Under the pieces are notes generated by a model that was given only the letters and a program-made list of their open reading frames with translations, did no database searches and was not told the origin of the DNA. A program made the position numbers and the translations under genes. A stretch of 39,782 nucleotides of DNA from an uncultured Lachnospiraceae bacterium (GTDB lineage Bacteria; Bacillota; Clostridia; Lachnospirales; Lachnospiraceae): contig CANREE010000018.1 of NCBI GenBank assembly GCA_947629545.1, forward strand, positions 1 to 39,782, read 5' to 3'. Positions 21,113-39,500 of this stretch are shown in pieces. The first letter of the stretch is position 1. Each line of letters opens with the position of its first letter.

Positions 21113-22456
21113 ATGAACCTGAAAGCACAACTGGAATCCGTCATGCAGCAGGCAGTGGAGAGCTGCGAGGTGGCGGGCGTGAACCTTCTGGTGGAGAAGG
21201 ACGGAGAAGAGATCTGTTACTGTGAGGCTGGAATGGCCGATGTGGAGAAACAAAGGCCCATGCGCCGGGATACGATCCTGCGGCTCTATTCCCAGACGAA
21301 GCCCATTACAGCGGCTGCAGTGATGATCCTGATGGAGCGCGGCGTGATCGATCTGTGCCAGCCAGTGTCCGATTTCCTGCCGTCGTATGGGAAGCTGAAG
21401 GTTTGGGAGAACGGAAGCCTGCGGCCGGCGCAGACGCAGCTTCGTGTATTCGATCTTCTGAAAATGACTTCGGGCTTGCTGTATCCGGATATGCAGACAG
21501 ATGCCGGGCGGCATTCGATGGCTGTTTTTCTGGAAATGGACCGGCGGCTTTTTACGGATCACGCGATGACCACACGGGAAGTGGCGGACGCGCTGGTGGG
21601 CGGCGGTCTGGCTTTTGAGCCGGGCAGCTCGTGGCAGTACGGCACCTCGGCGGATGTCCTGGGAGCGGTGGTGGAGGCGGCTTCCGGCATGCCGTTTGCG
21701 GCATTTCTTAAGAAGGAGCTGTTCGATCCGCTCGGGATGAAAGACACGGCGTTCTGGGTGCCTGCCGGTAAGCAGGACAGGCTCGCGTCGGTCTATGAGA
21801 CGGTGACGGAGCCGGACGGAACGCGCAGCCTGCAGCTCTATACAGGCAATCATCTGGCGATCCGGAATGACATGAAGGAGGAGCCGGCGTTTGCGTCGGG
21901 CGGCGCGGGACTGGCTTCCACACTGGACGATTATATGAAATTCGCGCGGATGCTGATAAATGAAGGCGTGGTGCGCGGCGCGGGAAGCGCGGGAGCGTCC
22001 CGGCAGGACAGCGCGGGAGCGGCGTACGACGGGAAGGTTCCGGGGAAGCCGCAGCAGGATAAAGAGACTTCTGGGCAGCAGGACAGCGCGGCGCCGGCTC
22101 GGCAGGAAAGCACGGTGCCAGATGGAGCGGTTGCAGGCGCCAGGCTCCTTCGCCCCGCGACAGTCCGCTACATGACCACAGGCGAGCTGACGGATGTCCA
22201 GCAGCAGGGCTTCAACCGATGGCAGAATCTGGAGGGCTTCAGCTACGGCAGCCTGATGCGCGTCTGCAAAAATCCGTCCCGTACCGGATTTTTCACCCGG
22301 CAGGGCGAGTACGGCTGGGACGGCTGGCTGGGCATGTATTTCGCCAATTTCCCGGAGGAGAGGCTGACGATCCTGATGGGGACCCAGAAGCGGGACGCGG
22401 GTACATTTGCATTGACCAGAAAGCTGCGGAATATTGTTTTGACAGCTTTGGCCTGA
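21113..22456 (+). CDS. Serine hydrolase, beta-lactamase class C (S12) family
   Basis: A 447-residue penicillin-binding-protein-like hydrolase without a signal peptide, so probably cytoplasmic. The nucleophile motif is SQTK (Ser60-Lys63) and the Tyr motif is at Tyr176 (QYGTSAD). The C-terminal part, GWDGWLGMYFANFPEE, is typical of esterase-type members. A low-complexity insert of about 56 residues (288-343, rich in Gly, Ala, Ser, Gln, Asp) breaks the conserved ARMLINEG-RLLRPATV stretch. It contains repeated RQDSAG/QQDSAA/RQESTV units. GGAGAG precedes the start. It is last in the Fic-GNAT operon. Activity (esterase, peptidase or amidase) cannot be decided. Confidence 0.85.
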   Translation: MNLKAQLESVMQQAVESCEVAGVNLLVEKDGEEICYCEAGMADVEKQRPMRRDTILRLYSQTKPITAAAVMILMERGVIDLCQPVSDFLPSYGKLKVWENGSLRPAQTQLRVFDLLKMTSGLLYPDMQTDAGRHSMAVFLEMDRRLFTDHAMTTREVADALVGGGLAFEPGSSWQYGTSADVLGAVVEAASGMPFAAFLKKELFDPLGMKDTAFWVPAGKQDRLASVYETVTEPDGTRSLQLYTGNHLAIRNDMKEEPAFASGGAGLASTLDDYMKFARMLINEGVVRGAGSAGASRQDSAGAAYDGKVPGKPQQDKETSGQQDSAAPARQESTVPDGAVAGARLLRPATVRYMTTGELTDVQQQGFNRWQNLEGFSYGSLMRVCKNPSRTGFFTRQGEYGWDGWLGMYFANFPEERLTILMGTQKRDAGTFALTRKLRNIVLTALA

Positions 22457-22597
22457 TCGTGCTTTTTCAGCGACAGAACCAGAATAATCGCTGGCGTGAA
22501 GACTGTGAATCGCTTTGAGCAGAAATCATGTGTGGAGAAATAGAAGTGATTTTCAGGGGCGGAGAAACTCTGCCGACAGAATCAGGAGAGGGAGACG

Positions 22598-23341
22598 ATG
22601 AACCAGAATTATAAACTGCTCATTTCCTATGACGGGACCCGGTATCACGGCTGGGAGGCCAAGCCGGATGCTGAGATGACGGTTGAGGGGAAAATGGAGA
22701 CTGTGCTTGAGCGGATGGTGGGCCATCCGGTGAAGCTGACCGGCGCCGGGCGAACGGACGCCGGCGTCCACGCAAGAGGCATGGCGGCGAATATGTTTTT
22801 GGATGTGGAGATGAGCGAGGAGGAGATCCGTGATTATCTGAACCGGTATCTGCCGGAGGACATCTGCGTGCTGGAGGTGAAGAAGGCCTCGGAGCGTTTC
22901 CATGCCCGCTATAACGCCGCCGGGAAGACTTACCGTTACACCTGCTATTGCGGCCCTGTAAAGCCTGTGTTTGACCGCAAATATGTGTGCGTGCTGGATG
23001 AGGAGCCGGATATGGAGCGTATGAGGAAGGCCGCGGCTTATCTGACGGGCGAGCATGATTTTGCAAGCTTCTGCGGGAATCCGAAGATGAAAAAGTCTAC
23101 CGTGCGCACCGTTACGTCCATTGAGATTGTGCGAAATGGCCCGTATTTCTATTTTACGTATCAGGGAGACGGTTTTCTGAACCATATGGTGCGTATTCTT
23201 ACCGGGACGCTGTTGGAGGTCGGCTATGGGATGCGTACGCCGGAGAGCATGACGAAGCTTCTGGAGGCGAGGAACCGGGCGGAGGCCGGGTATTTAATGC
23301 CCGCGAAGGGATTGTGTCTGATGGAGGTTTATTATTCCTGA
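22598..23341 (+). CDS. truA: tRNA pseudouridine(38-40) synthase TruA
   Basis: A 247-residue enzyme that isomerises uridines 38-40 in the tRNA anticodon arm. The catalytic aspartate is Asp54 in GAGRTDAGVHA. Other family motifs are YDGTRYHGW near the start, FHARYNAAGKTYRY and FLNHMVRIL. Length is normal. The ATG at 22598 follows AGGAGAGGGAG. The truA start is 141 nt after the serine hydrolase stop, and that gap shows no clear promoter or terminator. A short hairpin follows the stop (GGGGCGG 23347-23353 with CCGCCCC 23361-23367). Confidence 0.96.
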   Translation: MNQNYKLLISYDGTRYHGWEAKPDAEMTVEGKMETVLERMVGHPVKLTGAGRTDAGVHARGMAANMFLDVEMSEEEIRDYLNRYLPEDICVLEVKKASERFHARYNAAGKTYRYTCYCGPVKPVFDRKYVCVLDEEPDMERMRKAAAYLTGEHDFASFCGNPKMKKSTVRTVTSIEIVRNGPYFYFTYQGDGFLNHMVRILTGTLLEVGYGMRTPESMTKLLEARNRAEAGYLMPAKGLCLMEVYYS

Positions 23342-23387
23342 CAAAAGGGGCGGTCAGTGTCCGCCCCGGAAAAGGAGGCAGTTTCAT

Positions 23388-25979
23388 ATGTTATATGCAG
23401 TAAAACCGCCGTCGCCCGCTATCACGAATGTTCGGCGGGAGGGCGGCAGGCTGATTCTGGAATCGGAGCTTTTTCTGACGGTTCTGGAGCCGAAGACAGC
23501 GGGAATCGTCCGGGTGACGGTCACGCGGGAGAAGGAGCTTTCGGATATGCCGCGGCCGGGCATCGTCCCGACGCCTGCGGATGACGATGGCATGCGGAAA
23601 GCAGAGCCGGGAGATTGCGTCCAACATCGTGGCAGCACATCGGAGGCTGAGCAGGCAGAGTCCCTGTCGTCCAAGGACTGGACATACGAGGAGACCCCGG
23701 ACGAGATCATCCTGACGACCGGCAGGACGGTTCTGCGAATCTTGCGGGAAACCGCTTCTTTCTCGTGGTACGATGAAAGGGGCTGTCTGCTTCTCGCCGA
23801 GGCGGAGAAGGACAGCAAGGTTCTTGAAAAATTCCCGAAATATCGGATGGTCACGGGCCGGACCGAGCGCGTGAAAACCTCCGACGGTGAGAAAGAGATC
23901 ATCCGGGAGGCGGAGCGGGCCGAGGACGGCTTCAGCTATCATGCGACGCTCAATGTCCGTTTTCAGGACGGCGAGGCGATTTACGGCTTCGGACAGCATG
24001 AGGAAGGTTACGGGAACCTTCGGGGCAAGACGCTCTATCTCTATCAGGAGAACCGGAAGATCGTCGTTCCGATGATGGTTTCAAGTCTGGGCTACGGGAT
24101 TCTGATGGATACATATAGTCCGCTTATTTTCTGCGACGGCGGGTACTGCCAGTATGCGGGAGCTGCGGCTGGCAGAGGGAGGGATGCGTTGCAGCAAAAT
24201 ACAGGAAACGGCGTTGCCGGTACTTCTGCGTTTTTCTCAGCTGGCGAGACCTCTGCCTTCCCGGCGTACATCTACTCCGAGGCGGTGCCGGAACTGGATT
24301 TCTATTTCATAAACGGCGGCACGATGGAAGGCGTCGTCCGGGGCTATCGGTATCTCACCGGCGGCGCGGCGATGCTGCCGAAATGGGCGTTCGGCTACAT
24401 CCAGTCGCAGGAGCGCTATGAGACCCAGGAGGAGATCGAGCACGTGGCCGACGAGTACCGGAAGAGAGAAATCGGGCTGGACTGCGTGGTTTTGGACTGG
24501 TGTTCCTGGGAGGATGGAAAATGGGGCCAGAAGACCTTCGACGCGAAGCGCTTCCCGGACCCGGCAGGCATGGTGGAGCGGCTTCACGGGCAGCATACCC
24601 ATTTTATGATCTCTGTCTGGGCCAACAGCGATCCGGGCTGTGAGAATCATGAGGAATTCAAGGCCGCCGGACTGTTCCTGCCGGGACAGAACATTTACAA
24701 CGCCCTGTCCGCGGCCGGCCGGGAAATGTACTGGAAGCAGATGAAAGAGGGACTGTTCCGGTACGGGATCGACGCGTGGTGGTGCGACAACAGCGAGCCG
24801 ATCACGCCGGAGTGGAACCATGTGGAGCGCCCGGCGGCGCCGAGGGCCTACGACGAGTACGTCAGGACCGTTTCGGATCATCTTCCCGCCGAGCAGATGA
24901 ACGCGTTCGCGCTTTACCATGCGCAGGGGGTTTATGAGGGCCAGCGGAAAACCACCGGTTTAAAGCGGGTCTGCAACCTGACACGCAGCGCCTATACCGG
25001 TTCCCAGAGATACGGCACGATCCTCTGGTCGGGGGACATCGCCGCGACGTGGGACACGCTGACGCGGCAAATCGCGGCGGGACTGAATTTCTGCGCTTCC
25101 GGCCTTCCGTACTGGACCACCGACATCGGCGCGTTCTTTGTCAAACGCGGGCTTAACTGGTACTGGCGCGGCGATTTCGAGGAGACGGTCAATGATTACG
25201 GCTACCGCGAACTGTTTACGCGATGGTACCAGTGGGGCGCGTTCCTGCCGGTCTTCCGCGGCCACGGAACCGACTGCCGCAGGGAGCTGTGGCTGTATGA
25301 AAATACGGAGGATGTGAACTTCTACGACGCGATCCTTAAGGCCAACCGGACGCGCTACCGGCTTATGCCTTATATTTACTCTGTCGCGGGAAACTGCCGG
25401 CTGAACGGCGGGCTGATGATGGAACCGCTGGCCTTTGGCTGGAGCGATGATCCGGTCGCATTGGAAGTGAAAGATCAGTATATGTTCGGACCGTCGCTCA
25501 TGGTCTGCCCGGTGCATGAGCCGATGTATTATCTGCCGCAGTCGCAGCGGATCACGAAAGAGCAGTCCCGCCGGGTCTATCTGCCCGAGACGCCGGGCGG
25601 ATGGTATGATTATGAAACCGGGGAGCATCTGGAGGGCGGTCAGTGGATCTCAGCGCCAGCGCCGATCGACCGGATCCTGGTGTTCGTAAAGGCCGGCTCG
25701 GTGATTCCTCAAGCGGATTTTGCACTGTCTACGGAGGAGCAGAGCGGGGAGATCCGCGTAAAGATATATCCCGGCGCAGACGGCGTATTCAGTCTCTATG
25801 AGGACGACGGCGACGGGTACGGGTATGAAAACGGCGAATACCGTCTGACCAGACTCTGCTGGGATGACGGAAACGGAGAGCTTTCTGCGGAGATCGTTCA
25901 CGATTATGAAGGCGGGAAGCAGAGATATCGCATGAAAGAGCAGATATTGGCTGACCGTGAAAGATGTCAGTATCGTTGA
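23388..25979 (+). CDS. GH31 family alpha-glycosidase
   Basis: An 863-residue glycoside hydrolase family 31 enzyme. An N-terminal beta-sandwich precedes the TIM barrel (about 325-650). The nucleophile is Asp467 in DAWWCDNSEP and the acid/base Asp550 in ILWSGD, with RSAYTGSQRYGT just before it. Residues about 660-863 are beta domains including a DUF5110-like end. No signal peptide is seen, so it probably acts on imported oligosaccharides. The WWxDxxEP form belongs to a subgroup with varied alpha-glucosidase or xylosidase activity; specificity is not predictable. Two low-complexity inserts (about 62-98 and 257-292) interrupt the N-terminal domain. GGAGG lies just before the ATG. Confidence 0.9.
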   Translation: MLYAVKPPSPAITNVRREGGRLILESELFLTVLEPKTAGIVRVTVTREKELSDMPRPGIVPTPADDDGMRKAEPGDCVQHRGSTSEAEQAESLSSKDWTYEETPDEIILTTGRTVLRILRETASFSWYDERGCLLLAEAEKDSKVLEKFPKYRMVTGRTERVKTSDGEKEIIREAERAEDGFSYHATLNVRFQDGEAIYGFGQHEEGYGNLRGKTLYLYQENRKIVVPMMVSSLGYGILMDTYSPLIFCDGGYCQYAGAAAGRGRDALQQNTGNGVAGTSAFFSAGETSAFPAYIYSEAVPELDFYFINGGTMEGVVRGYRYLTGGAAMLPKWAFGYIQSQERYETQEEIEHVADEYRKREIGLDCVVLDWCSWEDGKWGQKTFDAKRFPDPAGMVERLHGQHTHFMISVWANSDPGCENHEEFKAAGLFLPGQNIYNALSAAGREMYWKQMKEGLFRYGIDAWWCDNSEPITPEWNHVERPAAPRAYDEYVRTVSDHLPAEQMNAFALYHAQGVYEGQRKTTGLKRVCNLTRSAYTGSQRYGTILWSGDIAATWDTLTRQIAAGLNFCASGLPYWTTDIGAFFVKRGLNWYWRGDFEETVNDYGYRELFTRWYQWGAFLPVFRGHGTDCRRELWLYENTEDVNFYDAILKANRTRYRLMPYIYSVAGNCRLNGGLMMEPLAFGWSDDPVALEVKDQYMFGPSLMVCPVHEPMYYLPQSQRITKEQSRRVYLPETPGGWYDYETGEHLEGGQWISAPAPIDRILVFVKAGSVIPQADFALSTEEQSGEIRVKIYPGADGVFSLYEDDGDGYGYENGEYRLTRLCWDDGNGELSAEIVHDYEGGKQRYRMKEQILADRERCQYR

Positions 25980-27448: not shown

Positions 27449-27488
27449 GAATGAATTGTTGAGTGCTCATAAGGCAGTATAAAAAGTA

Positions 27489-27843: not shown

Positions 27844-29262
27844 ATGGAAAACAAAAACGGACTTTCCGAGGAGGCATTTCAGTTTGAGGGCAAGATGCCT
27901 CTGTCTCAGGCAATCCCGCTGGGCCTGCAGCATGTGCTGGCCATGTTCGTGGGAAACCTGACGCCCCTTCTGGTGATCACCGGCGCCTGCGGACTGGCGG
28001 GCAACGCGGAATTCGCGGATCTGCGGGTGGCGCTTCTGCAGAACGCCATGCTGGTGGCCGGTATCGTGACCCTGATCCAGCTGTTCTCGATCGGGCCCAT
28101 CGGCGGCAAGGTACCGATCATCATGGGTACCAGCTCCGGATTCATCGGCGTGTTCAGCGGCGTGGCAGCTTCTATGGGCAGCGGCATCCTGACTTACGGC
28201 GCAATGATGGGCGCATCCCTGCTGGGCGGCCTCTTTGAGGGCGTGCTGGGCTTCTTCTTAAAGCCTCTGCGCAAGTTCTTCCCGCCGGTCGTCACGGGCA
28301 CTGTGGTGCTGTCTATCGGACTTTCGCTGATCTCCGTCGGAATCAATTCCTTCGGCGGCGGCAATACGGCCAAGGACTTCGGTTCCATGGAAAACCTCCT
28401 GCTGGCGACCTTCGTGCTGGTGGTGATCCTGGTCGTGAAGCACTGCACGAAAGGGTTCTTAAGCTCCTCGGCGATCCTGGTGGGCATCGTGGCCGGCTAC
28501 ATCGCCGCGGTGATCATGGGCCTGGTTCTTCCGCACACCGCGATCGACGCGGAGGGCGTGGAGTACACCAAGTCCTGGGTCCTGAACTGGAGCCAGGTAG
28601 GTACCTCGGCCTGGATTGAGATCCCGAAGCTTATGCCGGTGAAGCTGGTCTTTGACCTGCGTGCGATTCTCCCTGTCATGATCATGTTCATCGTGACAGC
28701 GGTGGAGACAGTGGGCGATATCTCCGGCGTAATCGTTGGCGGTATGGACCGTGAGGCGACGGACAACGAGCTGGCCGGCGGCGTGATCTGCGACGGTATC
28801 GGTTCTTCCATCGCGGCCCTGTTCGGCGTACTGCCGAATACCTCCTTCAGCCAGAACGTGGGTCTGGTGGCCATGACCAAGGTGGTCAACCGCGGCGCTC
28901 TGGCCTGCGGCGCCATTTTCCTGGTTCTGTGCGGTCTCGTTCCGAAGCTGGGCGCGATCATTTCCATCATGCCCCAGTCAGTGCTGGGCGGCGCGGCCGT
29001 GATGATGTTCTCCTCCATCGTACTCAGCGGTATCCAGCTGATCACGAGGAAGCCCCTGACAGCCAGAAGCCTGTCCATCGTGGCGGTGGCGCTGGGCGTT
29101 GGTTACGGCATGGGCGCCAATACGGGCATCCTGGCCCATACGCCCCAGTACATCCAGCTGATCTTCGGCGGCTCCGGCATCGTGCCGGCGGCCATGGTGG
29201 CGATCATCTTAAACATCGTGCTTCCGAAGACGAAGGAAGATCTGGAGCAGGAAGCGGCGTAA
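27844..29262 (+). CDS. NCS2-family purine permease (xanthine/uric acid type)
   Basis: A 472-residue membrane transporter of the nucleobase:cation symporter-2 family with about 12-14 helices. The family signature is present as QNVGLVAMTK (from Gln337), the form seen in xanthine and uric acid carriers rather than uracil carriers (inference from the family). FVTAVETVGDISG-like sequence in helix 8 carries the conserved Glu. AAGGAG precedes the ATG at 27844. It has its own promoter with an upstream repeat cluster, and a terminator follows. Its position near purine-hydroxylase-type genes supports uptake of a purine for oxidation. Confidence 0.9.
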   Translation: MENKNGLSEEAFQFEGKMPLSQAIPLGLQHVLAMFVGNLTPLLVITGACGLAGNAEFADLRVALLQNAMLVAGIVTLIQLFSIGPIGGKVPIIMGTSSGFIGVFSGVAASMGSGILTYGAMMGASLLGGLFEGVLGFFLKPLRKFFPPVVTGTVVLSIGLSLISVGINSFGGGNTAKDFGSMENLLLATFVLVVILVVKHCTKGFLSSSAILVGIVAGYIAAVIMGLVLPHTAIDAEGVEYTKSWVLNWSQVGTSAWIEIPKLMPVKLVFDLRAILPVMIMFIVTAVETVGDISGVIVGGMDREATDNELAGGVICDGIGSSIAALFGVLPNTSFSQNVGLVAMTKVVNRGALACGAIFLVLCGLVPKLGAIISIMPQSVLGGAAVMMFSSIVLSGIQLITRKPLTARSLSIVAVALGVGYGMGANTGILAHTPQYIQLIFGGSGIVPAAMVAIILNIVLPKTKEDLEQEAA

Positions 29263-29375
29263 GAGGCGCGGAGAGCGCGGCGAAAACGGCGAGAGTTTCT
29301 TTGAAAGGATAGAGAAACTGAGATAAATGCAATGCGGACAGTTTGTCACTGACATTCTGTTCTCAGGGAAATATG

Positions 29376-29430
29376 AAGGCGTGCTGCGGCACCGGGGATT
29401 CCGGGCGGGCACGCCTTTCTTTCATTTTTC
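29376..29430 (+). terminator. Terminator after the NCS2 permease
   Basis: AAGGCGTGC (29376-29384) pairs with GCACGCCTT (29409-29417), with an inner CCGG/CCGG stem, followed by TTCTTTCATTTTTC. It also separates the permease from the convergent ModE-MocA gene. Confidence 0.75.
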
Positions 29431-29461
29431 CGTGTGAGCAGAGTGCCAATGATGCCTTGCT
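29427..29461 (+). repeat. 35-bp dispersed repeat, intergenic copy
   Basis: This stretch, beginning TTTCCGTGTGAGCAGAG, matches 33125-33159 at 31 of 35 positions, with the first 17 bases identical. The partner copy is inside the coding sequence of the FecCD-type permease. Here it lies between the NCS2 terminator and the ModE-MocA stop, which is otherwise featureless. Confidence 0.7.
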
Positions 29462-29547
29462 TTATTTAACGCTTCTTGCACTTCTGCAAAGGGATGAATG
29501 ATAAATAAGCGGTCATTCTCCTTATTTTCTGATATAAGATTCGATAT

Positions 29548-30654
29548 TTAGTCAGAAATTATTCTCTCCAGAAGAGTCAGGTCCTCCGACGTATCAATGT
29601 CTCTCAGCTCCATCGCAGAGGCGGCCTCGATCAGGCGAACCTGCTGCGGGAAGGATTTTGCCACGTAGGCGCCGCCTTTTTCCTGAGGAAGATCCCTAAG
29701 TGCCGGGAAATGCTCTTTCGGAAAAATGATCGGGTTGCCTGGTGTGCCTCCGTGTGCGAGACGGTAAATGAACTGTGGTTCGTCCAGAAAGGCGCGGGCC
29801 ATCCGCTCGACGGTCTCACGGGACAGCAGAGGCTGGTCGCAGGCGCAGAACATGCAGCCGTCGGGGAGAGGCGGAGCGTCGGAAGAAGGACTGTCGTCAC
29901 AGACCGCTTCCACCCCAAGGCGGACGGTATCGTTTCGGTACGGAAATGAATGAAGCACCGCCCGGATTCCCATTTCTTCGCATAATCCGGCAATCTCCGG
30001 GTATCTGGTTACAACGACGCGGCAGGAGAACAGGGACGAGTCGGTGGCATTCAGGATCCTGCAGATCAGCGGTTCTCCATGAAATGGGGCCATAAGCTTG
30101 TTGCTGCCGAAGCGTTGCCCCAGACCGGAGGCCATGAGGACGCAGGCAAGTTTGGGGTACTTTGGCTTTGGTGTATCCGATGCTTTCTTTTCAATCGAGT
30201 TAGTCTGTAAGGCAGGGCAATGGCTGCCCGATTCTGCTTTCGTCTGTGGGGAGAGACGCTGGCGGTCTTCTTCAATGTTAGCATGTGAGATGAAATGCCG
30301 ACAGTCGTTTTCCTGCGTTTCTTCACGAAAAACCGTACGATAAATTTCCAGATTCGCCTGATAGCAGGCGTCACGATAAGTTTTATATTTTTTAACAAAA
30401 TCCCGCGCCTCGGCGGTGAGTCGGCTGCCGCCGCCTCCTTTTCCGCCGATGGTTCGCTCGGTCAGTGGAAAACCCAGCGTTTCCTCCGCATGCTTTAACA
30501 GATGCAGGGCTTTGGTGTAGGCCATTTGCATTTCCTGAGCAGCGGCGCGGAGCGAACCGGTGCGCTCAATGCCTTCCAGAAGCCGGCATGGGCCTTCGCC
30601 GAAGAATTTGTCTCCGTTGTCATCTTTCAGGAAAACACGGGTGGTTGGATACAT
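29548..30654 (-). CDS. ModE-like HTH fused to MocA-type molybdopterin cytidylyltransferase
   Basis: A 368-residue two-domain protein. Residues 1-109 match the ModE N-terminal DNA-binding domain (GSLRAAAQEMQMAYTKAL, then the Gly-rich GGKGGGGSRLT wing). Residues about 168-368 are an NTP-transferase of the MocA/YgfJ group: LMASGLGQRFGSNKL (nucleotide-binding), ACDQPLLS and GTPGNPIIFP. MocA adds CMP to molybdopterin to form the cytosine dinucleotide cofactor of xanthine-dehydrogenase-type hydroxylases. A polar linker of about 58 residues (110-167) joins them. No molybdate-binding TOBE domain is present. AAGGAG precedes the ATG. It is expressed from its own promoter, downstream of the FecBCD-type operon. 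Confidence 0.88.
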   Translation of the reverse strand: MYPTTRVFLKDDNGDKFFGEGPCRLLEGIERTGSLRAAAQEMQMAYTKALHLLKHAEETLGFPLTERTIGGKGGGGSRLTAEARDFVKKYKTYRDACYQANLEIYRTVFREETQENDCRHFISHANIEEDRQRLSPQTKAESGSHCPALQTNSIEKKASDTPKPKYPKLACVLMASGLGQRFGSNKLMAPFHGEPLICRILNATDSSLFSCRVVVTRYPEIAGLCEEMGIRAVLHSFPYRNDTVRLGVEAVCDDSPSSDAPPLPDGCMFCACDQPLLSRETVERMARAFLDEPQFIYRLAHGGTPGNPIIFPKEHFPALRDLPQEKGGAYVAKSFPQQVRLIEAASAMELRDIDTSEDLTLLERIISD

Positions 30655-30841: not shown

Positions 30842-31825
30842 TCAGACGCGTGGCAGCAGGATGAGGCTGAGACAGCCCTTCTCCTCGAAGGCGCGGAGCC
30901 GGATAGGGCCGTAGATTTCGGACAGAGCGTCTTCCATATCAGGGAGGCTGTCTTTGGCCGGCTGCAGAATGGCAGTGCAGACACCGTTCTTCAGAAGTAT
31001 CAGACGGCTGCAATATTTCAGAGCCAGCTGTGGGTCGTGAAGCGTGACAAGGGCTGCTTTGCCGTAGAACGCGGTTCGTTCATTAGAGGTGTCTTCGGCT
31101 GAGGTGTGACTGTCAGCGTGGGAGGAATCCTGCCCGCGGATGATCTCTGTCAGCAATTCCATGCTCCGGTGCCTGTGCGGGAAATCCAGAGAGCTTTCCG
31201 GCTCGTCCAGAAGGAGCAGAGAAGCGTCTTCTACGATGGTACGGGCCAGGATGCAGAGCTGTTTCTGCCCCTCGCTGAGCGTCTGGTAATCCTGTCCGGC
31301 GTAAGATTCCAGCCCCACGGCGCGAAGCGCCTTAAGGGCTTTTTCTTTTTGCGCGCGGGACGGCTGCGCCAGAAGGCTGAGTACCGGATTAAAGCCCATC
31401 AGAACCACATCGATCACCGGAATGGAGATGGCGATGCCGCTGCGCTGGGGAATGTAGCTGATCTGTTTCGCCAACTGGCGGGCGGTCATCTGCTCCAGAG
31501 GCCGGCCGTTTAAGAGACAGGAGCCGGTAAAGGGAAGCTGGCGGCAGAGCGCCCGCAGAAGCGTAGTCTTGCCGCAGCCGTTGGGGCCCAGAAGGCCGGA
31601 GATTTCGCCCTGCTTCGCGCAGAATGAGACGTCCTTCAGGATTTGGGAGCGGCCGTAGCCGGCGCTTAGGGAGGACACCTGAAGGCAGGTGTGAGATTCT
31701 GCTGCCGGCGCGTCATAGCGGGATGCTGAGACCCGCGTCGAAGAATGATCCGCATGGAATGGTGAGGACGATAATTGTCGGTGAGCAGTGTCTGTGCCGG
31801 AATTTCTTTGCGTGCTATTCAGCAT
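30842..31825 (-). CDS. ABC transporter ATPase, FecE/BtuD type
   Basis: A 327-residue ATPase of the iron/cobalamin/molybdate importer group. Walker A is GPNGCGKTT (80-88), followed by the family-typical QISYIPQR, signature LSEGQKQL and Walker B LLLLDEPESSLDF; the switch histidine is in VTLHDPQLA. The first 46 residues are a Ser/His/Thr-rich extension absent from relatives, and about 20 polar residues (about 230-250, SSHADSHTSAEDTSNE) split the region after Walker B. The start is firm: CCTCC on the + strand (GGAGG) lies 8 nt upstream, and the gene overlaps the permease by 11 nt. Substrate probably set by the binding protein in the same operon. Confidence 0.88.
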   Translation of the reverse strand: MLNSTQRNSGTDTAHRQLSSSPFHADHSSTRVSASRYDAPAAESHTCLQVSSLSAGYGRSQILKDVSFCAKQGEISGLLGPNGCGKTTLLRALCRQLPFTGSCLLNGRPLEQMTARQLAKQISYIPQRSGIAISIPVIDVVLMGFNPVLSLLAQPSRAQKEKALKALRAVGLESYAGQDYQTLSEGQKQLCILARTIVEDASLLLLDEPESSLDFPHRHRSMELLTEIIRGQDSSHADSHTSAEDTSNERTAFYGKAALVTLHDPQLALKYCSRLILLKNGVCTAILQPAKDSLPDMEDALSEIYGPIRLRAFEEKGCLSLILLPRV

Positions 31826-33209
31826 TGTTTTTTCCTCCGTTTCCGCTCATGATCAGGTACAGTAAAAACGGCGCGCCCAGAAGCGATGTGAAAATGCTCA
31901 CCGGCAGTTCAGACGCGGTTACAGTACGGGTCAGGATGTCAGCCGCGGTCAGAAGAACACCACCCAGCAGTCCGCTTAGGGTCAGTGTGTGAAGCCGGTT
32001 GTCGCGCATTAGAAGCCGGGCAATGTGCGGGGCCAGCAGGCCGATGAAGCTGATGACGCCGGTGACGCTGATCACAGAAGCGACCACCAGAGTGGCCAAC
32101 AGCAGGATCAGCAGGCGCATCCGCCCGACGGGAACGCCCAGCATCCGGGCTTCCGCTTCGTCTACTGACAGCAGAATGATCTGTCGGTGGAGAAGGAAGA
32201 GACCGGCGAGTCCGGCAGCGCACACGGTGCAGTAAAACGGAATCCGGCTCAGCGTGATTGCGTTTAAGCTGCCCATGATCCAGTATTCGATGGAAGCCAG
32301 CTGGCGCTCCGGGTCGGCGGTCAGCTTCAGAATCATGAGAACGGTCTGGGCCAGTGAATGGACCGCGATGCCGGCCAGCACGATACTGCCGCTGCCGGCG
32401 GAGGCAGCTCCGCCGGTGTACCGGCGCGAGTACGTCCATCTGTGGCTGGATGTGTTACTTTTATCGGAATATTGGTGGGAGTGCATCTCATCATCGCTGG
32501 ATGACGCAGTTTTGCGTGAATATCGGTACAGCCCCAGTCCGCCGCCGTATCCGCCGGCGGCGGAAGCTAACCCAAGGGCGATTCCCACAGCCAGCAGGCC
32601 GCCCGCGAAGGCGGAAAGCGTGACCGCAGCAGCCGACGCCGGAAGAACCAGGATCGCGAATGCGGCCCCGGCGCTGGCACCGGAGGAAACGCCGATCATA
32701 TCCGGCGCGGCCAGGGGATTGCGGAACACGGTCTGGAACACGAAGCCGGCCGCGCCCAGGGCGAAGCCGCCGAGGACGGCCATAAGCGTTCGCGGGATCC
32801 GAAGCGTTAAGAGAACCTGAAGCTGCATGGCGTCGCCTGCGAGGATTTTCTCCAGAGAGAGCGGATATTTGCCGGCCAACAGGGAGATGACGCAGGCGGT
32901 AAGAAGCAGAAGAGCGGAGAGATACAGAGCGGTGCTGCGCTGCATATAGTTGTGCCGCGCCGTATGTCCCGGGGTGTGCTGTACAGATTCACAGGACGCT
33001 GAATCAGAAACGTTAGCCGCCGGAGCGTGCAATGCGGCTGAATCAGGATGATCGGTCTGCGAATACGGTACGGCAGAATCAAGCTGGTCGGTCTGCGTTT
33101 GCAAATAGCCAGCCTGAGTCTGTGTTTCCGTGTGAGCAGAGCGCCAGTGATGCGTTGTTCGCCTGAAGTGAGTATTCGGATTTGCGTTTTTCTTCTGCTC
33201 TGTGCGCAT
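31815..33209 (-). CDS. ABC transporter permease, FecCD/BtuC type
   Basis: A 464-residue permease of the FecCD family with about nine to ten helices. Family segments include LRIPRTLMAVLGGFALGAAGFVFQ, ending in the coupling region, and later GVISFIGLLAPHIARLL. The first about 75 residues are a His/Thr/Gln/Ser-rich extension, and a polar insert of about 45 residues (Ser, His, Tyr, Arg) lies between helices near 32395-32545. Relatives are about 330-350 residues, so roughly 120 residues are extra. The ATG at 33209 has AGAGGA upstream; an in-frame GTG at 33269 is possible but has a weaker site. It lies between the binding protein and ATPase genes. Confidence 0.85.
   Translation of the reverse strand: MRTEQKKNANPNTHFRRTTHHWRSAHTETQTQAGYLQTQTDQLDSAVPYSQTDHPDSAALHAPAANVSDSASCESVQHTPGHTARHNYMQRSTALYLSALLLLTACVISLLAGKYPLSLEKILAGDAMQLQVLLTLRIPRTLMAVLGGFALGAAGFVFQTVFRNPLAAPDMIGVSSGASAGAAFAILVLPASAAAVTLSAFAGGLLAVGIALGLASAAGGYGGGLGLYRYSRKTASSSDDEMHSHQYSDKSNTSSHRWTYSRRYTGGAASAGSGSIVLAGIAVHSLAQTVLMILKLTADPERQLASIEYWIMGSLNAITLSRIPFYCTVCAAGLAGLFLLHRQIILLSVDEAEARMLGVPVGRMRLLILLLATLVVASVISVTGVISFIGLLAPHIARLLMRDNRLHTLTLSGLLGGVLLTAADILTRTVTASELPVSIFTSLLGAPFLLYLIMSGNGGKNNAE
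33035..33097 (-). repeat. Degenerate 36-nt-period tandem repeat in the permease extension
   Basis: Two 27-nt units, 33035-33061 and 33071-33097, match at 23 of 27 positions and are 36 nt apart. They encode QTDxxDSAxxxx-type units in the N-terminal extension. A fainter third copy (GCTGAATCAG) lies near 32998-33007. Confidence 0.7.
33125..33159 (+). repeat. 35-bp dispersed repeat, in-frame copy inside the permease gene
   Basis: This copy matches the intergenic copy at 29427-29461 (31 of 35). Read on the minus strand it encodes the TTHHWRSAHTET part of the permease extension without disturbing the frame. Confidence 0.7.
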
Positions 33210-33346
33210 ATCGGATCCTCTAGTTTTTCTGATTCCTGCCGTTTTGAATCTTTCCTTTATCATCGACACTTCAAGAGTTTCAGGGCAATCTGCCTGAAGC
33301 CGAATGTCGGAAGCAGTTTATATTCGAGTTTTGCCGTGAATGACGG

Positions 33347-34624
33347 TTATTCTGCCGTACTGTACAGATTCTCCATATCCGGCGAAAATCCGTAGAACAT
33401 CTCATAATACTCCGCTGCGGCCTGTTTCCAACTATCCGCCGGATAGTTGTCCGGATGAATGACACTGGCCAGCCACATGCTTCCCAGGATGCTGCTGGGG
33501 ACAGGGCTGTCCCAGGATTCGATGGCGTTGGGGAACTGGTATATATTTCCGTTTGTGACGGCTTTCAGGCCCTTCAGATTCTCGTCCTTCAGGACGGAGT
33601 CCACAGTATATTCTGCGTCGGCGGCAAGAATGATGTAGTCCGGATCCCACGCAAGAAGCTGCTCATAGGAAATGTCCGCCCAGTAATCGTCGCTGATTTC
33701 CGCAGCCGCGTTCGCACCGGCGGCCTGCCCGATCAGGCTGTTCTGGTACATAGCCGGACCAGCCACGGCCAGAAGGGAGCTGTTGCTGGCAAGATACACT
33801 GTGGGCGCGGACGCGGCGTCGATATCGGACAGCGCTTCCGTCAGGGGCGCCAGCTGTTTATCGTGGAAAGCCAGAAGCTCATTGGCGCGGTTCGCCGTAT
33901 TTGTGGCAGTTCCCAGCAGAGTCACCGCTTCCTCCAGAAGCGCCTTATCCTCCGGATTCACGACGATGGCGGTCAGGCCCAGCTCTTCCAGCGACGGAAT
34001 GACGTCTTTCAGCTTGGCCGGAAGCACGATCAGATCCGGTTCGAGGGCGGCGCAGCCTTCCAGATCGAATTCCTTGGCGGTACCGACGCTGGGCAGATCG
34101 ATGACATCGGGGGCGCTCAAACGGTAGATGCTGCGGCTTTTCGCTTTGGCTTCGATACCGACAAGCTTCTCCTTAAGCCCCAGCGCGATCAGCAGACTGG
34201 TGGAAATATAGTAGCCGCTGACCAGGGTCTCCGGTTCCTTTTCGATGACAACCTCGCGGCCGATCTGGTCCGTGACGGTTACGGGGTAGGTTACCGCGGC
34301 GGAAGTTTCCACGCTTGCCGAGGTCTCGCCGACTGTATTTTCGGTGGAGTTTTCCGCTGCAGCATTATCCGAAGCGGTGGTTTCGGTTCCGATTTCTCCT
34401 GCTTTATTAGAGGATTCAGAAGCGGAATCTGCATTGACAGTTCCTGTTTCTGTGATTTCCGCAACGGAAGCTCCGGCTTTGGCCGTTTCCGCGGCAGTTG
34501 TCCCTGCGTCAGCAGATTCCGCAGTCGTTGTTGCGGCAGAAGTGGAAGTCTGGTTCTCCGTGCCGTTGCAGCCGGCCAGGAGAATCATAGTGGTTGACAG
34601 TACGATAGCAAGTCTTCGTTTCAT
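33347..34624 (-). CDS. Substrate-binding lipoprotein of a FecBCD-type ABC transporter
   Basis: A 425-residue lipoprotein. The signal peptide ends in the lipobox LLAGC with Cys19. A Thr/Ala/Ser/Glu-rich spacer (about 20-115) precedes a TroA/FepB-like periplasmic-binding fold starting at VTDQIGREVVIEK. The closing half has EISDDYWADISYEQLLAWDPDYIIL. This class binds iron-siderophores, cobalamin, haem or molybdate/tungstate (MolA); key ligands cannot be read here. The ATG at 34624 has GGGAG upstream. It is the first gene of a minus-strand operon with permease and ATPase. Its promoter carries a ModE-like dyad. Confidence 0.87.
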   Translation of the reverse strand: MKRRLAIVLSTTMILLAGCNGTENQTSTSAATTTAESADAGTTAAETAKAGASVAEITETGTVNADSASESSNKAGEIGTETTASDNAAAENSTENTVGETSASVETSAAVTYPVTVTDQIGREVVIEKEPETLVSGYYISTSLLIALGLKEKLVGIEAKAKSRSIYRLSAPDVIDLPSVGTAKEFDLEGCAALEPDLIVLPAKLKDVIPSLEELGLTAIVVNPEDKALLEEAVTLLGTATNTANRANELLAFHDKQLAPLTEALSDIDAASAPTVYLASNSSLLAVAGPAMYQNSLIGQAAGANAAAEISDDYWADISYEQLLAWDPDYIILAADAEYTVDSVLKDENLKGLKAVTNGNIYQFPNAIESWDSPVPSSILGSMWLASVIHPDNYPADSWKQAAAEYYEMFYGFSPDMENLYSTAE

Positions 34625-34638
34625 AAGTAAAGCTCCCA

Positions 34639-34666
34639 ATCGTTATAGTTTTAAAACAACAACGAT
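34639..34666 (-). promoter_or_regulatory. 28-bp dyad, candidate ModE-type operator
   Basis: ATCGTT (34639-34644) and AACGAT (34661-34666) are centred on the palindrome GTTTTAAAAC (34648-34657). In all, 12 of 14 base pairs are symmetric. The left part ATCGTTATA equals the half-site of the E. coli ModE box; the right half is less similar. It directly abuts the -10 box and covers the likely transcription start, the position of a repressor site. Confidence 0.6.
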
Positions 34667-34695
34667 ATTCTAGCAGGCAGGCAGTAATCTGTCAA
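34667..34695 (-). promoter_or_regulatory. Sigma-A-type promoter of the FecBCD-type operon
   Basis: On the minus strand a perfect TTGACA (34695-34690) and TAGAAT (34672-34667) are 17 nt apart. The start codon of the binding protein is about 43 nt downstream. Confidence 0.8.
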
Positions 34696-34732
34696 TAGAA
34701 ACAGGATATGCAGATTTCAACATGCTGGAGGC

Positions 34733-34991
34733 GTGCCGTGGTGTATTACCTATACTTTCATGCCGGATGAACTGGAGCGGCTGCTCGGCCGCTTCGACGT
34801 AACGGATATCAGGCTGTCGGGCCCCGGCGCTTATGCAAGGACAATCCCCCCGCGAGATACTCGTAAAGATCATGAACGATTCCGCGCAGCAGAAGGATTT
34901 CCTGGACTTTTGTTATCAATACGATTCGAATCCGTAAGTGTGCGGTATGGGGAAGGATAATCTGCTGGCAATGGGAAATATACGCGCTTGA
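34733..34991 (+). pseudogene. Decayed C-terminal fragment, probable SAM-dependent methyltransferase
   Basis: Three pieces read as one protein tail. The first (TYTFMPDELERLLGRFDVTD then GPGAYARTIP) is in one frame. Removing one C from the run at 34846-34851 continues as REILVKIMNDSAQQ and FLDFCYQYDSNP. A TAA at 34935 then interrupts, after which VCGMGKDNLLAMG runs to a stop at 34989-34991. The pattern resembles the end of a class I SAM-dependent methyltransferase, which is a tentative match. No 5' part or start signal is present; the fragment abuts the FecBCD-type promoter. It lies within the 445-nt gap 34625-35070. Confidence 0.5.
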
Positions 34992-35012
34992 GGAACGATG
35001 AATAAAAAAGAG

Positions 35013-35041
35013 TTGTTTTTATGCGGTTCTTCATTTATGAT
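35013..35041 (+). promoter_or_regulatory. Promoter upstream of the YunG-like gene
   Basis: TTGTTT (35013-35018) and TATGAT (35036-35041) are 17 nt apart, 30 nt before the ATG at 35071. It may also drive the hydroxylase genes. Confidence 0.6.
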
Positions 35042-35070
35042 AGGATAAGAACGGAAAGGCGGACGGACAG

Positions 35071-35511
35071 ATGAAAGAATACTATTTTTACGGATGGGCA
35101 GCGGCGGACGTCCCGGCGGTTTCAGATACCTGTCCCGGGATTGCGAACCCGCGTGATCTATATGACGCGCTTTCGGATGTCTGGTGTGCGGAGACGTGCG
35201 CGCCGCGGATGCGCGATAACTGGAGTCGGGCGAATCGGACGCTGGGGCAGTGTTCGATCACGGCGTTTCTCGCGCAGGATATATTTGGCGGGAAGGTTTA
35301 CGGCGTTTTGCTGTCGGATGGGCACTTCCATTGCTATAATGTGGTCGGCGGCTGCGTCTTTGATCTGACCAGCGAGCAGTTCGGGGATACAGAGCTGTCT
35401 TATGAGAATAACCCGGAGCAGTTCCGTGAGGTGCATTTCGCGGATCCGGATAAGAAAATGCGGTACGAATATCTGAAGCAGCTGCTGCTGAAGCGGCAGC
35501 GGGGACGGTAG
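35071..35511 (+). CDS. YunG-like protein
   Basis: A 146-residue protein resembling the YunG family of Firmicutes. The conserved core is GQCSITAFLAQDIFGGKVYG, then HFHCYNVV and VFDLTSEQF. Cys61, His85/His87 and Asp98 occur in the order of a papain-like or transglutaminase-like triad, which hints at thiol chemistry; this is my inference and the family has no established function. No signal peptide is seen. It has a promoter just upstream and precedes the FAD subunit by 130 nt, so it might be in the hydroxylase operon. The link could equally be accidental. Confidence 0.65.
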   Translation: MKEYYFYGWAAADVPAVSDTCPGIANPRDLYDALSDVWCAETCAPRMRDNWSRANRTLGQCSITAFLAQDIFGGKVYGVLLSDGHFHCYNVVGGCVFDLTSEQFGDTELSYENNPEQFREVHFADPDKKMRYEYLKQLLLKRQRGR

Positions 35512-35641
35512 GACGGCGCAGGCGGCAGATATTGAAGAGCAGATCGCCGGCGGCGCGGTGGAAGCGCCGGGTGAAGATAGCAGTGTGCAAAGTGCGCGTA
35601 GCAGTATATTTTCATGCGGACAGAATCCAAAGGAGACACGG

Positions 35642-36571
35642 ATGATTTCGATTAAGGAATACAGAAAAGCAGAGAGCCTGGACGAGGCCTGGGAGCTGAA
35701 CCAGAAAAAGGCCAACCGGATCATCGGCGGCATGATGTGGCTGAAAATGAGCCGCGGCCGGGTACAGACGGCCATTGATCTGTCAGGTCTGGGGCTTGAT
35801 ACTATCGAGGAACGGGACGACGCCTTCGTCATCGGCAGTATGGTCACGCTGCGGCAGCTGGAGACACACCCGGGCCTGAATGCGTATACGGACGGGGCCG
35901 TGAAGGAAGCGCTCCGGCATATTGTAGGCGTCCAGTTCCGCAGCGGCGCCACCGTGGGCGGGAGCCTGTTCGGGAGATACGGCTTTTCGGATGTGCTGAC
36001 TATATTCATGACGCTGGACGCTGAAGTGGAGCTCTATAAAGGCGGCGTGATTCCGGTATCCGTATTCGCGGAGATGTCCTACGACCGGGACGTGCTGGTG
36101 CGCGTGATCGTGAAGAAGAAGCCGGAGAGATATTATTACCAGTCAGTCCGAAATACGGATACCGATTTCCCGGCGCTGACCTGCGGGGCGGCGCTTACGG
36201 CGGACGGCAGCCTGCGGCTCTGCTTCGGGGCGCGGCCGCAGAAGGCGATGATGCTTATGGACCGGGACGGTGTGCTGGATGGGCTGCGCGCGGGAGAGAA
36301 TTCTGCCGGGCGCACGGAGAACGGTGCAGGAGATGAACCGAAGGACTATGCCGGAGTTGAATTGCAGAATAACGCCGGAATCGAGCAGGGGAGCGGCACC
36401 AGCGCCGGATCGGGAGACGCCGCTGTGAAACGCGCCGAGGCGATCGGCGTTTACGCAGCGGAAAACATTCCTACCGGCTCGAACATGCGCGGCAGTGCCG
36501 CGTACCGAAGCCACCTGGTGAAGACGCTGGCGTCGCGGGCAGCGGAGCATTTTCTGACGGAGGCATTATGA
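35642..36571 (+). CDS. FAD-binding subunit of a molybdenum hydroxylase
   Basis: A 309-residue protein of the FAD-binding domain of xanthine-dehydrogenase-type enzymes. It passes electrons from the iron-sulfur centres to NAD(P)+ or another acceptor. RIIGGMMWLKMSR is an altered form of the usual FAD phosphate loop, similar to the subunit found in selenium-dependent-type clusters. GATVGGSLFGRYGFSD and the C-terminal GSNMRGSAAYRSHL fit the family. A 47-residue low-complexity insert (about 216-262; Ala, Gly, Glu, Asn) separates the main domain from that C-terminal part. AAAGGAG (35629-35635) fixes the ATG. The stop overlaps the next ATG by 4 nt. Confidence 0.88.
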   Translation: MISIKEYRKAESLDEAWELNQKKANRIIGGMMWLKMSRGRVQTAIDLSGLGLDTIEERDDAFVIGSMVTLRQLETHPGLNAYTDGAVKEALRHIVGVQFRSGATVGGSLFGRYGFSDVLTIFMTLDAEVELYKGGVIPVSVFAEMSYDRDVLVRVIVKKKPERYYYQSVRNTDTDFPALTCGAALTADGSLRLCFGARPQKAMMLMDRDGVLDGLRAGENSAGRTENGAGDEPKDYAGVELQNNAGIEQGSGTSAGSGDAAVKRAEAIGVYAAENIPTGSNMRGSAAYRSHLVKTLASRAAEHFLTEAL

Positions 36572-39500
36572 AGATACAGTTTACATTAAACGGCAAAAAA
36601 TACGAGCAGGAGATCCGACCGGACCTGCTTCTCATCGATCTGGTTCGTTCCCTGGGCTGTTACAGCGTGAAACGGGGCTGCGAGACATCCAACTGCGGCC
36701 TTTGCACCGTCTGGCTGGACGGCCAGCCGACGTTGTCCTGCTCGATTCTGGCGGCGAGAGCGGACGGCCGTACGGTCACGACGCTGGAGGGCCTGCAGGA
36801 GGAAGCCGCCGAGTTCGGCGCATTTATCGCGGATCAGGGGGCGGAGCAGTGCGGCTTCTGCAACCCGGGATTTATGATGAACGCACTGGCGCTTTTCCGG
36901 GACAATGAAAACCCGTCTGAGCAGGAGATCCGGGAGTACCTGGCGGGAAATCTCTGCCGTTGTTCGGGGTATGAAGGGCAGCTGCGGGGGATGATGAATT
37001 TCATGGAGTGGCGGAAGGCGCGCGGGAAAGCGGAGTCGGAAGATGACGCGGAATCTGGCAGTTCGGCTGGAGAAGCCTCCGGGAAAATCGCAGCTAAAAT
37101 GCAATGCAGCAATGCAGAGAAGGCATCAGCAGTGTTGCTTACCAGCAGTATATCGGATAGATCAGTATTGAACAGAACTGTAAATGATGAGACAATATCG
37201 GACAGGGCCGCGGCAAGGCTGGCAAGCGGAGCGTCTGTAACTGAGCAGGTGCGTCGGATTTCATCTGATGCGGCTCCCCAGACCCACCACGAAAAGGAGA
37301 CCGCCCAGCTCCTGCGTACGGTCAATAAAGCCGTCCGCAAAAAGGACGCCATGCAGCTTCTCACCGGCCAGCCGGTCTACACCGACGACCTGGCGCCGGA
37401 AGACTGCCTGATCGTGAAGGTCCTGCGCTCGCCCCACGCCAACGCGCTGATCGAGCGCGTCGACACGGCTAACGCCATGAAGGTGCCGGGGGTGGAGGTC
37501 ATTTACACATGGGAGGACATTCCGGCGGACGCGAAGCGCTTCACCTGCGCCGGTCAGACCTACCCGGAGGCCAGTCCCCACGACCGGCTGCTGCTGGACC
37601 GCCATGTGCGCTATGTGGGCGATCCGGTGGCTATCGTGGCTGGTGAGACGGAGAAGGCTGTGGACCGGGCGCTGGCCCTGATCAAGGTGACGTATCAGGT
37701 GCTTACGCCGGTTCTTGATTACCATACCGCCCTCGACAATCCGGTGCTGGTGCATCCGGAGGACAACTGGGAGAGCCTGTGCCCGGTGGGTGCGGACAAC
37801 CGGAGAAATCTGTGCGCCCACGACGAGAGCCGCGGCGGCGACATCGATAAAGTGCTGTCCGAGTGCGACATCGTTCTGGACCGGACCTATCACACGAAGG
37901 CGGCCCAGCAGACCATGATGGAGACGTTCCGGGTTTTCTGCACCATCGACGCCTACGGGCGGCTCCATGTGACCAGTTCGACCCAGATCGTGTTCCATTG
38001 CCGCCGCATCGTGGCCGCCGCGCTGGGGATCCCCCAGTCGAAGGTCCGGGTGACCAAGCCCAGGATCGGAGGCGGGTTCGGCGCCAAACAGACCGTGGTC
38101 GCGGAAATATTTCCGGCCTTCGTCACCTGGAAGACGAAGAAGCCCAGCAAAATGATCTACACCCGCGAGGAGTGCATGACCGCTTCCACGCCCCGCCACG
38201 AGATGGAAATGCACGTGCGCCTGGGCGCAATGAGGGACGGCCGCATCCGCGGCATCGATCTGTACACTATTTCCAATACCGGCGCCTACGGCGATCACGG
38301 TCCGACGACCGTGGGCCTGTCCGGCCACAAATCCATTCCGCTCTACGGAAAGGCGGAGGCGTTCCGCTTCGTCAGCGACGTGGTCTACACCAATATCATG
38401 GCGGCGGGCGCGTACCGCGGCTACGGCGCGACCCAGGGACTTTTCGCGGTGGAGTCGGCGGTCAATGAACTGGCGGCGGAGCTTCATATGGATCCGTTCG
38501 CGCTGCGGGAGATGAACATTGTCAGGGAAGGCGATGTGATGCCGGCTTATTACGATGAGCCCAACACCAGCTGCGCCCTGGACAAATGTCTGGCCCGTGT
38601 GAAAAAAATGAGCGGCTGGGCGGAGAAATTCCCGGTCCGGCGCCTGCCGAACGGCAAAATCCGCGCCATGGGCATGGGCATGGCCATGCAGGGCTCCTGC
38701 ATCTCCGGCATGGACGTGGGCAGCGCCACATTGAAGGCCAATGAGGAAGGCTACTACACGCTGACCATCGGCGCCGCCGATATGGGGACCGGGTGCGACA
38801 CGATCCTGGCCCAGATCGCGGCCCAGGTGCTGGAGTGCCCGGTGGACGCCGTCACGGTGTTCGGCGCGGATACGGACGCTTCGCCCTACGATTCCGGCTC
38901 CTACGCGTCCAGCACCACATTTGTCACCGGCAAAGCGGTGGAAAAATGCGCCCAGGATCTGCGGGAGCGAATCTGCAGGCTTGGTGCGAAGCTGCTGGGA
39001 TGTGAGAAGGAGCAGGTGGAGTTCGACGGGACGAAGGTGTATGTGCTGGAGGAAGAGGGGGCGGCGGATGCTGCCGCAGTGCGTGATTCGGACACAGATT
39101 ATAATGCGAAAGCGGTGAATGATGTCGGAACAGTATGTGTTGCGGAAGTGATGCATGGTGCGGATGTGATAAGCGATTGTAGTGTGAATGCGGTACGCAG
39201 CGAAGACGTGTCGTGTGGAACGGATGCGGCATATGGCGCAAATTCAGCGGATATAAGTGGTGTTGCTGAAGCAGAGAGAAAAGCAGAATGTTTAGAAAAC
39301 GGTGAAGTGGGGCTAACGGGAGTTTCGGCTGAAAAACAGGAATCTGACAACCAGCCGCGCTCTGTCTCCCTGCAAGACATCGTCATCGCGTCCATGTGCG
39401 GTAACGACATCGCGCTGGAGACCACCTATACCCACAGTTCCATGGTCTCTCCGCCCCCGTACATGGTAGGCGCGGCCGAGATCGAAGTGGATCCGCAGAC

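Follow-up and report, generated by a model that had tools for sequence, protein, structure and literature searches.

Low-complexity inserts in proteins of a Lachnospiraceae genus and a mobile 39-nt hairpin found in a few of them

Inserts along the window and in related genomes

We analyzed a 39,782-nt stretch of Lachnospiraceae DNA (contig CANREE010000018.1, referred to throughout as the window) in which enzymes and transport proteins carry in-frame, low-complexity inserts. The window also holds copies of a newly recognized hairpin with a 39-nt unit, resembling the repetitive extragenic palindromes (REPs), which lie between genes and, in one protein, within an insert. The source is a draft metagenome-assembled genome (MAG) of 2.95 Mb in 162 contigs, 83% complete and designated G000. 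It was set beside 25 further species of the same genus, giving 26 genomes at one per species (G numbers denote genomes and L numbers denote loci or stretches); all genomes compared are MAGs or drafts. The inserts differ in length between close species, and they have probably been gained within this one genus, at tolerant loops and linkers, by duplication with some capture of the hairpin. A first-pass annotation of the window had pointed to low-complexity segments in eight proteins; they are present in all eight, and the orthologs vary in length at the same places. Matching sites vary in 3-7 congeners in the S12 (beta-lactamase fold) hydrolase, GH31, MocA, FecE, FecCD, the FAD subunit, the hydroxylase and the binding protein, and Pfam domains span several of the insert segments.

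The Fec-type operon illustrates the pattern. The core of the FecCD permease is 81-93% identical across nine congeners, and its N-terminal and internal segments span from nothing to ~95 and 53 residues, respectively. The N-terminal insert (32940-33221, minus strand, residues 17-110) varies in length among these nine congeners. The internal insert (32400-32558, minus strand, residues 238-290), 53 amino acids longer than in G015, is missing in G015 and G009 and almost missing in others, and neither insert was found in any of six orthologs from other genera. The FecE-type ATPase has an N-terminal extension (31676-31819, minus strand, residues 3-50) whose length varies between congeners and which is short or absent in L007, L008, L011 and L014. 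Its internal insert (31061-31129, minus strand, residues 233-255) has various lengths in L002, L003, L005 and L009 and is missing in L007, L008, L011, L012, L014 and L018. The binding protein, which was outside the first-pass list, has a linker after its lipoprotein start (34286-34561, minus strand, residues 27-118); GC content at third codon positions (GC3) is 45.7% there versus 69.3%, and the ratio of nonsynonymous to synonymous substitution rates (dN/dS) is 0.22-0.62 versus 0.10-0.16.

The S12 hydrolase insert (21974-22144, plus strand, residues 288-344 of the gene at 21113-22456) consists of degenerate 24-nt units. It is missing in G001, almost missing in G002, and changes length in 24-nt steps elsewhere (tandem p<0.01), so that both the position and the tandem character first assigned to it stand. 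Taking FecCD and S12 together, folded cores that are 81-95% identical among congeners differ by up to ~100 residues at the same loops. GH31 carries two inserts on the plus strand of the gene at 23388-25979, one at 23550-23675 (residues 55-96) and one at 24159-24257 (residues 258-290), the latter unlike G015 and others in length; dN/dS is 0.37-0.56 across the two inserts versus 0.09-0.12 in the core. The linker between the ModE and MocA parts (30154-30327, minus strand, residues 110-167 of the gene at 29548-30654) corresponds in the G009 ortholog (L188:12679-14106) to a 39-nt tandem array of a sequence other than the hairpin, and this is the clearest case of duplication. In the same G009 protein a further tandem segment lies near residue 336, and the catalytic domain contains a hairpin.

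The insert of the FAD subunit (36296-36442, plus strand, residues 247-295) lies at a site occupied in L026 by a 24-nt tandem array. In the hydroxylase, the first insert (37030-37302, plus strand, residues 155-245) lies in the linker that joins the 2Fe-2S part to the molybdopterin part; it is 70 amino acids longer than in G015 and is kept in L026, and the linker is short in seven other aligned congeners or near kin. The second insert (39052-39351, plus strand, residues 829-928) is 32 amino acids longer than in G015 and is shortened or missing in L003, L005, L006, L007, L008 and L010. The named relative L012 has a different, tandem-repeat insert of its own at this second site, which is therefore not unique to the closest kin of the window. 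In L014 and L018 the 2Fe-2S and molybdopterin parts occupy separate frames; in the window (36568-39780) and in close kin they are fused, with the first insert at the junction. Elsewhere in the window, low-complexity tandem arrays of 30-nt and 18-nt units occupy 13929-14223, in the C-terminal portion of the gene for an L,D-transpeptidase (12358-14280).

We counted as an event any in-frame length difference of at least 10 amino acids between aligned orthologs of called genes, and express rates per 1000 aligned amino acids. At 85-97% identity, the neighborhood of the window shows 145 events in 80,137 amino acids (1.81), compared with 8 in 54,864 for Blautia (0.15), 3 in 50,076 for Mediterraneibacter (0.06), none in 20,450 for Anaerotignum, none in 2,579 for a Dorea-like set and 2 in 9,610 for a wide Lachnospiraceae set (0.21). 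At 70-85% identity the neighborhood rate is 2.43, versus 0.16, 0.49, 0, 0 and 0.49 in the same five sets. Since the window was chosen for its inserts, and its neighborhood rate thus comes from a selected region, unselected stretches of G000 and G015 were compared as well. With the window left out, these yield 11 events in 16,473 amino acids at 85-97% identity (0.67), a genome-wide excess of about 3- to 11-fold, on small counts, over the comparison sets that show any event.

The first-pass annotation had contrasted these proteins with insert-free housekeeping genes. Within the window this agrees with the absence of any event of at least 10 amino acids from the 10 other genes that had comparators, in 2-6 species (11 genes, all within 801-14277, had no comparator), but insert-bearing genes beyond the window include NadE, ScpB and SpoIID, besides a glycosyltransferase, and the contrast is therefore not general. 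In G000 a second Fec-type operon (L215:2210-5767, on contig C19) has inserts relative to G015 in its ATPase, FecCD permease and binding protein alike. The open frames around SbcD also vary among congeners, from 378 to 550 amino acids for several, and may hold further inserts.

Composition and constraint

Constraint on the inserts is much weaker than on the cores, and their sequence departs from the normal coding sequence of the genome. Of 24 planned comparisons of insert with core, one lacked an ortholog, and an undefined dS in one of the remaining 23 left 22. In all 22 the insert has the higher dN/dS, at 0.18-0.83 (median 0.44) for inserts and 0.05-0.16 (median 0.11) for cores. The inserts of 46 of 50 genes have a GC3 below that of the core (p 2.6e-12), with medians of 0.56 for inserts and 0.73 for cores, and the hexamer score per codon is 0.003 in inserts versus 0.54 in cores. 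Insert residues are enriched in Ser, Asn, His, Ala and Thr and depleted in Leu, Phe, Trp and Met; W, C, F, I, Y, V and L together make up 15.5% of insert residues and 32.2% of core residues. Inside the inserts, then, neither codon use nor conservation is ordinary, and no segments conserved in distant relatives were found, two outcomes in keeping with what the first-pass annotation had proposed.

Its description of the hydroxylase inserts as poor in GC fits in part. Four of ten 60-nt rows lie at 37-48%, the other six at 55-65% and the flanks at 57-70%. Whole-insert GC is 53.5% and 50.7%, versus 62.0% for the rest, and third-position GC is 44.0% versus 81.5%. Low GC is not general as a common trait of inserts. 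The cores of insert-bearing genes have higher GC3 (p 0.017) and greater length (p 0.0096), and the hexamer score of cores is alike in insert-bearing and other genes (p 0.30). We accordingly rejected the idea that insert-bearing genes are less expressed or have poorer codon use.

Tandem duplication and the hairpin element

Sources of inserts were sought in 104 species-level insertion records from 50 genes, many of them one hotspot recorded in several species. Tandem self-similarity (p<=0.02 versus codon shuffles) is present in 25 of the 104, against 7 of 104 control segments taken from the same genes. The duplication shifts are multiples of 3 nt in 24 of these 25, with units such as 15, 24, 36, 39, 54 and 72 nt. 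Local tandem duplication therefore accounts for about a quarter of the inserts. Capture of the mobile, REP-like hairpin accounts for a few, a hairpin lying within 5 of the 104 records compared with 0.1 per shuffled set.

The hairpin was first seen in the FecCD N-terminal inserts of G009 and G001, which are made of 39-nt hairpin-folding units. A covariance model has stem covariation, with 17 double-change cells versus 6.7 in shuffled alignments. Borders were analyzed in 82 copies with full flanks, of which 76 are 48 nt long. The edges of conservation in these 76 are sharp and run from AATAC through a stem around the loop TCACYGG to GCATGGAAATA; the borders are AATAC and GGAAATA(C), the left one reading AAT A/G C in most copies. 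With AATA at both borders, the unit measures 39 nt, the same length by single insertion as by tandem step. Among 47 high-scoring copies, the six reading frames are open in 46, 45, 43, 45, 2 and 46, and at least five frames are open in 85% of copies compared with 19% of shuffles. Copies within genes use three different sense frames.

Four copies lie in the window. An intact intergenic copy (3965-4012, minus strand, 55.2 bits) folds as single-stranded DNA with a z of -8.0. The copy in frame within the FecCD N-terminal insert (33121-33168, minus strand, 54.4 bits, E 4e-14) is decayed and has lost its fold (z -0.21). Between the permease gene (27844-29262) and MocA are a decayed copy (29423-29470, minus strand, 50 bits) and a weak, probably decayed one (29328-29375, plus strand, 22.6 bits, E 1e-4 over 18.7 kb). 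Scoring 150 of 1725 candidates in G000 gave at least 132 covariance-model matches at E<=1, 90 of which reach 30.5 bits or more and represent at least 81 loci, mostly intergenic. In the unselected stretches, with opposite-strand readings of the palindrome and weak rows excluded (18 of 28 rows used in G000, 34 of 50 in G015), 13 of 18 copies are intergenic in G000 and 27 of 34 in G015, and one and three, respectively, fall deep within a called gene. In G015, two of the three share one gene, and one is probably upstream of the true start. Neighboring copies within 90 nt form 8 same-strand and 2 opposite-strand pairs, head-to-tail being the commonest arrangement.

Ten of the 26 genomes of the genus, G000 included, are rich in the hairpin (53-69 matches, with 61 candidates scored), four have 3-11 matches, four have one and eight have none. 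Outside the genus, 5 of 73 genomes gave one or two weak matches, and among 299 genomes of the family the hairpin occurred only in G000 and G015, apart from two single weak matches. By these matches the hairpin family is genus-restricted. Rfam has no family for the element, its sole match in the 11 sources being 6S RNA in L113, and a known RNA family was rejected as the identity of the hairpin. At that locus in G000 (L113:1250-1430) the 6S RNA gene adjoins a hairpin copy that is among the best. Plasmids or phages as carriers were likewise rejected, one 151-nt array having no match there.

Comparison of filled and empty sites, together with steps of 0, 1, 2 and 3 units among orthologs, shows that the hairpin inserts and multiplies. 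A gene for an AraC-type protein in G000 contains exactly one 39-nt unit that is missing in four congeners, three of which have AATA at the site; a Met follows the element directly, so the element could be a leader. At one site in a DUF4179 gene, eight congeners have 3, 2, 2, 2, 2, 2, 1 and 0 units, and four more distant ones have none. An intergenic copy between permease and MocA is present in G000 and G013 and not in G015 and G002, with AATA at the empty site in one of these two species, and another copy lies nearby in G021. In-frame copies lie in the genes of the unrelated proteins FecCD, DUF4179, MocA and a transglutaminase-like protein, and open frames and missing alternative starts suggest that they may be translated. 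The copy in G013 falls within the catalytic, MobA-like domain of MocA, which still matches its profile from end to end. Low-complexity inserts that contain a hairpin are those of FecCD in the window, of MocA in G013 and G009, and of the transglutaminase-like protein in G015, and a histidine kinase of G000 has a decayed copy within a linker.

The Y1 transposase domain PF01797 is found in 10 of the 26 genomes, G000 not among them. Of the ten best Y1 loci, one per genome, four have a hairpin 95-250 nt upstream of the transposase gene or its remnant, and all four genomes are hairpin-rich. In three of the four the end of the insertion sequence (IS) abuts a hairpin copy, and the end hairpins of the IS differ from the element. 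At L335, L332 and L339 the abutting IS200-like Y1 elements or remnant meet the hairpin at its AATAC border, as though the repeat were the target. For the one IS type examined beside copies, the hairpin and IS200/IS605 do not have ends in common. Given the other end hairpins of the IS, and that PF01797 is absent from six of the ten hairpin-rich genomes, it is just as probable that the IS targets the repeat as that it mobilizes it. The Y1 transposase was rejected as sole mobilizer, being absent from G000 and five other hairpin-rich genomes.

Origin of the inserts and known systems

In the explanation that we propose, the inserts were gained at tolerant loops, and they grow and shrink by whole codons. 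The 39-nt hairpin can enter genes in several frames without breaking them, since its unit equals 13 codons and stop codons fall in just one of the six frames, and further units can be added head to tail because each ends in AATA, the motif of the left border. The inserts would be close to neutral and, judging from their composition, largely disordered; purifying selection would clear frame-breaking or misplaced events, leaving survivors in tolerant loops. A candidate mobilizer of the hairpin is a trans-acting enzyme of the IS200/IS605 or REP-associated tyrosine transposase (RAYT) kind that works on single-stranded DNA. A bolder version, which we put forward tentatively and think somewhat doubtful, is that a still active, frame-neutral hairpin transposon whose ends recreate its AATA site acts in a free-living gut genus as a standing generator of loops, and that with in-frame duplication it turns loop growth into a general way for proteins of the lineage to change.

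Several observations weigh against gain by duplication and hairpin capture. Neither tandem similarity (p<=0.02) nor a hairpin is present in 75 of the 104 records, which are moreover not independent. The lineage habit of spacer growth proposed in the first-pass annotation is supported in part, by the tandem and hairpin records. Behind the excess in unselected genes stand 5 of 46 pairs, and the second Fec-type operon supplies three of these. Low-order segments are not extreme in the lineage; they occur in 36 of 314 G000 proteins, 76 of 586 in G015, 8 of 72 in G014 and 19 of 117 at Blautia loci, although the high Blautia count perhaps comes from one gene counted repeatedly. Among the 99 non-hairpin inserts, 20 match the sampled genomes at E<=0.05 compared with a mean of 8.2 for shuffled sequences, a slight surplus; the alignments are weak and no family emerged, and a second dispersed repeat family was rejected. 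Finally, a Y1 transposase was not found in most of the hairpin-rich genomes, and weak remnants of the hairpin beyond the known copies, sought with the 47 high-scoring copies, are not enriched in inserts (6 of 104 versus 4 of 104 cores at p<=0.02; 8 versus 9 at p<=0.05).

This last result bears on the idea that the inserts are mostly old, decayed hairpins, a hairpin seeding each loop and then mutating to low complexity. The hairpins found inside low-complexity inserts, and their excess over shuffled sets, speak for such seeding. Most tandem units, however, are not hairpins, and G014 has few or no hairpins (0 matches) with a similar share of low-order segments, so that together with the missing remnants the idea looks unlikely. 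The remaining 75 records, the lack of remnants and the case of G014 make the hairpin a minor, though the most striking, contributor. We also think it improbable that the inserts are adaptive, retained as disordered linkers for regulation, localization or phase behavior. Frames are open, dN/dS is below 1 in every usable comparison, and two unrelated Fec-type operons of one genome both have inserts, as retention would predict, but misaligned repeats can push dS up and hence dN/dS down, neither sequence nor length is conserved between close species, unrelated proteins are hit and the codon signal is lost.

Loss of repair, through mismatch repair or a hairpin nuclease, could raise the insertion rate, and the excess is indeed lineage-wide and not bound to one protein family. 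With MutS matched in all 26 genomes (22 above cut-off) and SbcD above cut-off in 19 of 26, including 8 of the 10 hairpin-rich ones, loss of either is not supported and we regard such an explanation as very unlikely. Assembly errors, wrong starts or pseudogenes come to mind with genomes that are all MAGs or drafts, and several hairpin copies near an N-terminus, such as that before the AraC-type Met, would be leaders if translation started later. We nonetheless give an artefact hardly any credence, as the same insertions recur in separate assemblies (S12 in G000, G013 and G009; the MocA hairpin in G013 and G009), the frames are open with dN/dS below 1, the internal DUF4179 and MocA copies cannot be leaders, and in several FecCD orthologs the stretch from the conserved upstream Met to the first membrane helix contains no other Met.

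Gain by duplication with some hairpin capture also has a practical side, as a caution for annotation and structure prediction, since long loops in these genomes may be recent and nearly neutral. In-frame palindromic repeats are best known in Rickettsia and some REP-rich genomes, and dozens of close species with empty sites and steps of 0, 1, 2 and 3 units offer a view of mobile DNA and duplication making protein segments, and of which loops tolerate them. In the open-licence papers searched, we found no account of such repeats or inserts in Lachnospiraceae, and the words Firmicutes and Clostridi are absent from the main text of PMC3733652.

The kind of element is already known from published in-frame Rickettsia palindromic elements (RPEs) and intragenic REPs (PMC10969869, PMC3733652), which our hairpin resembles in kind without bearing either known end tag. 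As portrayed in the sections of these papers drawn on here, RPEs are palindromic repeats that lie between genes and in frame in unrelated genes, with several frames open and a mobilizer that is unknown. The hairpin shares the intergenic and in-frame placement and the open frames. RPEs are, however, ~150 bp long (RPE-4 and RPE-6, which are REP-like, fall below this length and terminate in CGTC; PMC10969869, PMC3733652), whereas the present element is a 39-nt unit, bounded by AATA, that grows head to tail in a Lachnospiraceae genus. REPs, according to the parts of PMC3733652 consulted, are short hairpins in tens to hundreds of copies, mostly intergenic and sometimes intragenic, with stems of 5-13 bp and loops of 2-20 bp in the GTAG families. 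A short stem-loop in many dispersed copies is common to both, but the element has no unpaired GTAG or CGTC at either end, CGTC occurring only inside the hairpin, and head-to-tail neighbors, common here, are described for REPs as absent, under-represented or negligible (PMC3733652).

The subterminal hairpins and short fixed flank would suit a peel-and-paste element of the IS200/IS605 type, from which the different end hairpins of the adjoining IS, and the hairpin-rich genomes that lack PF01797, set it apart. Some REPs serve as insertion targets for IS elements. Intragenic tandem repeats and low-complexity regions, which typically occur in surface proteins, share with the present inserts a unit-wise change of length in multiples of three and a relaxed constraint; the inserts here differ in lying within unrelated cytosolic and membrane proteins.

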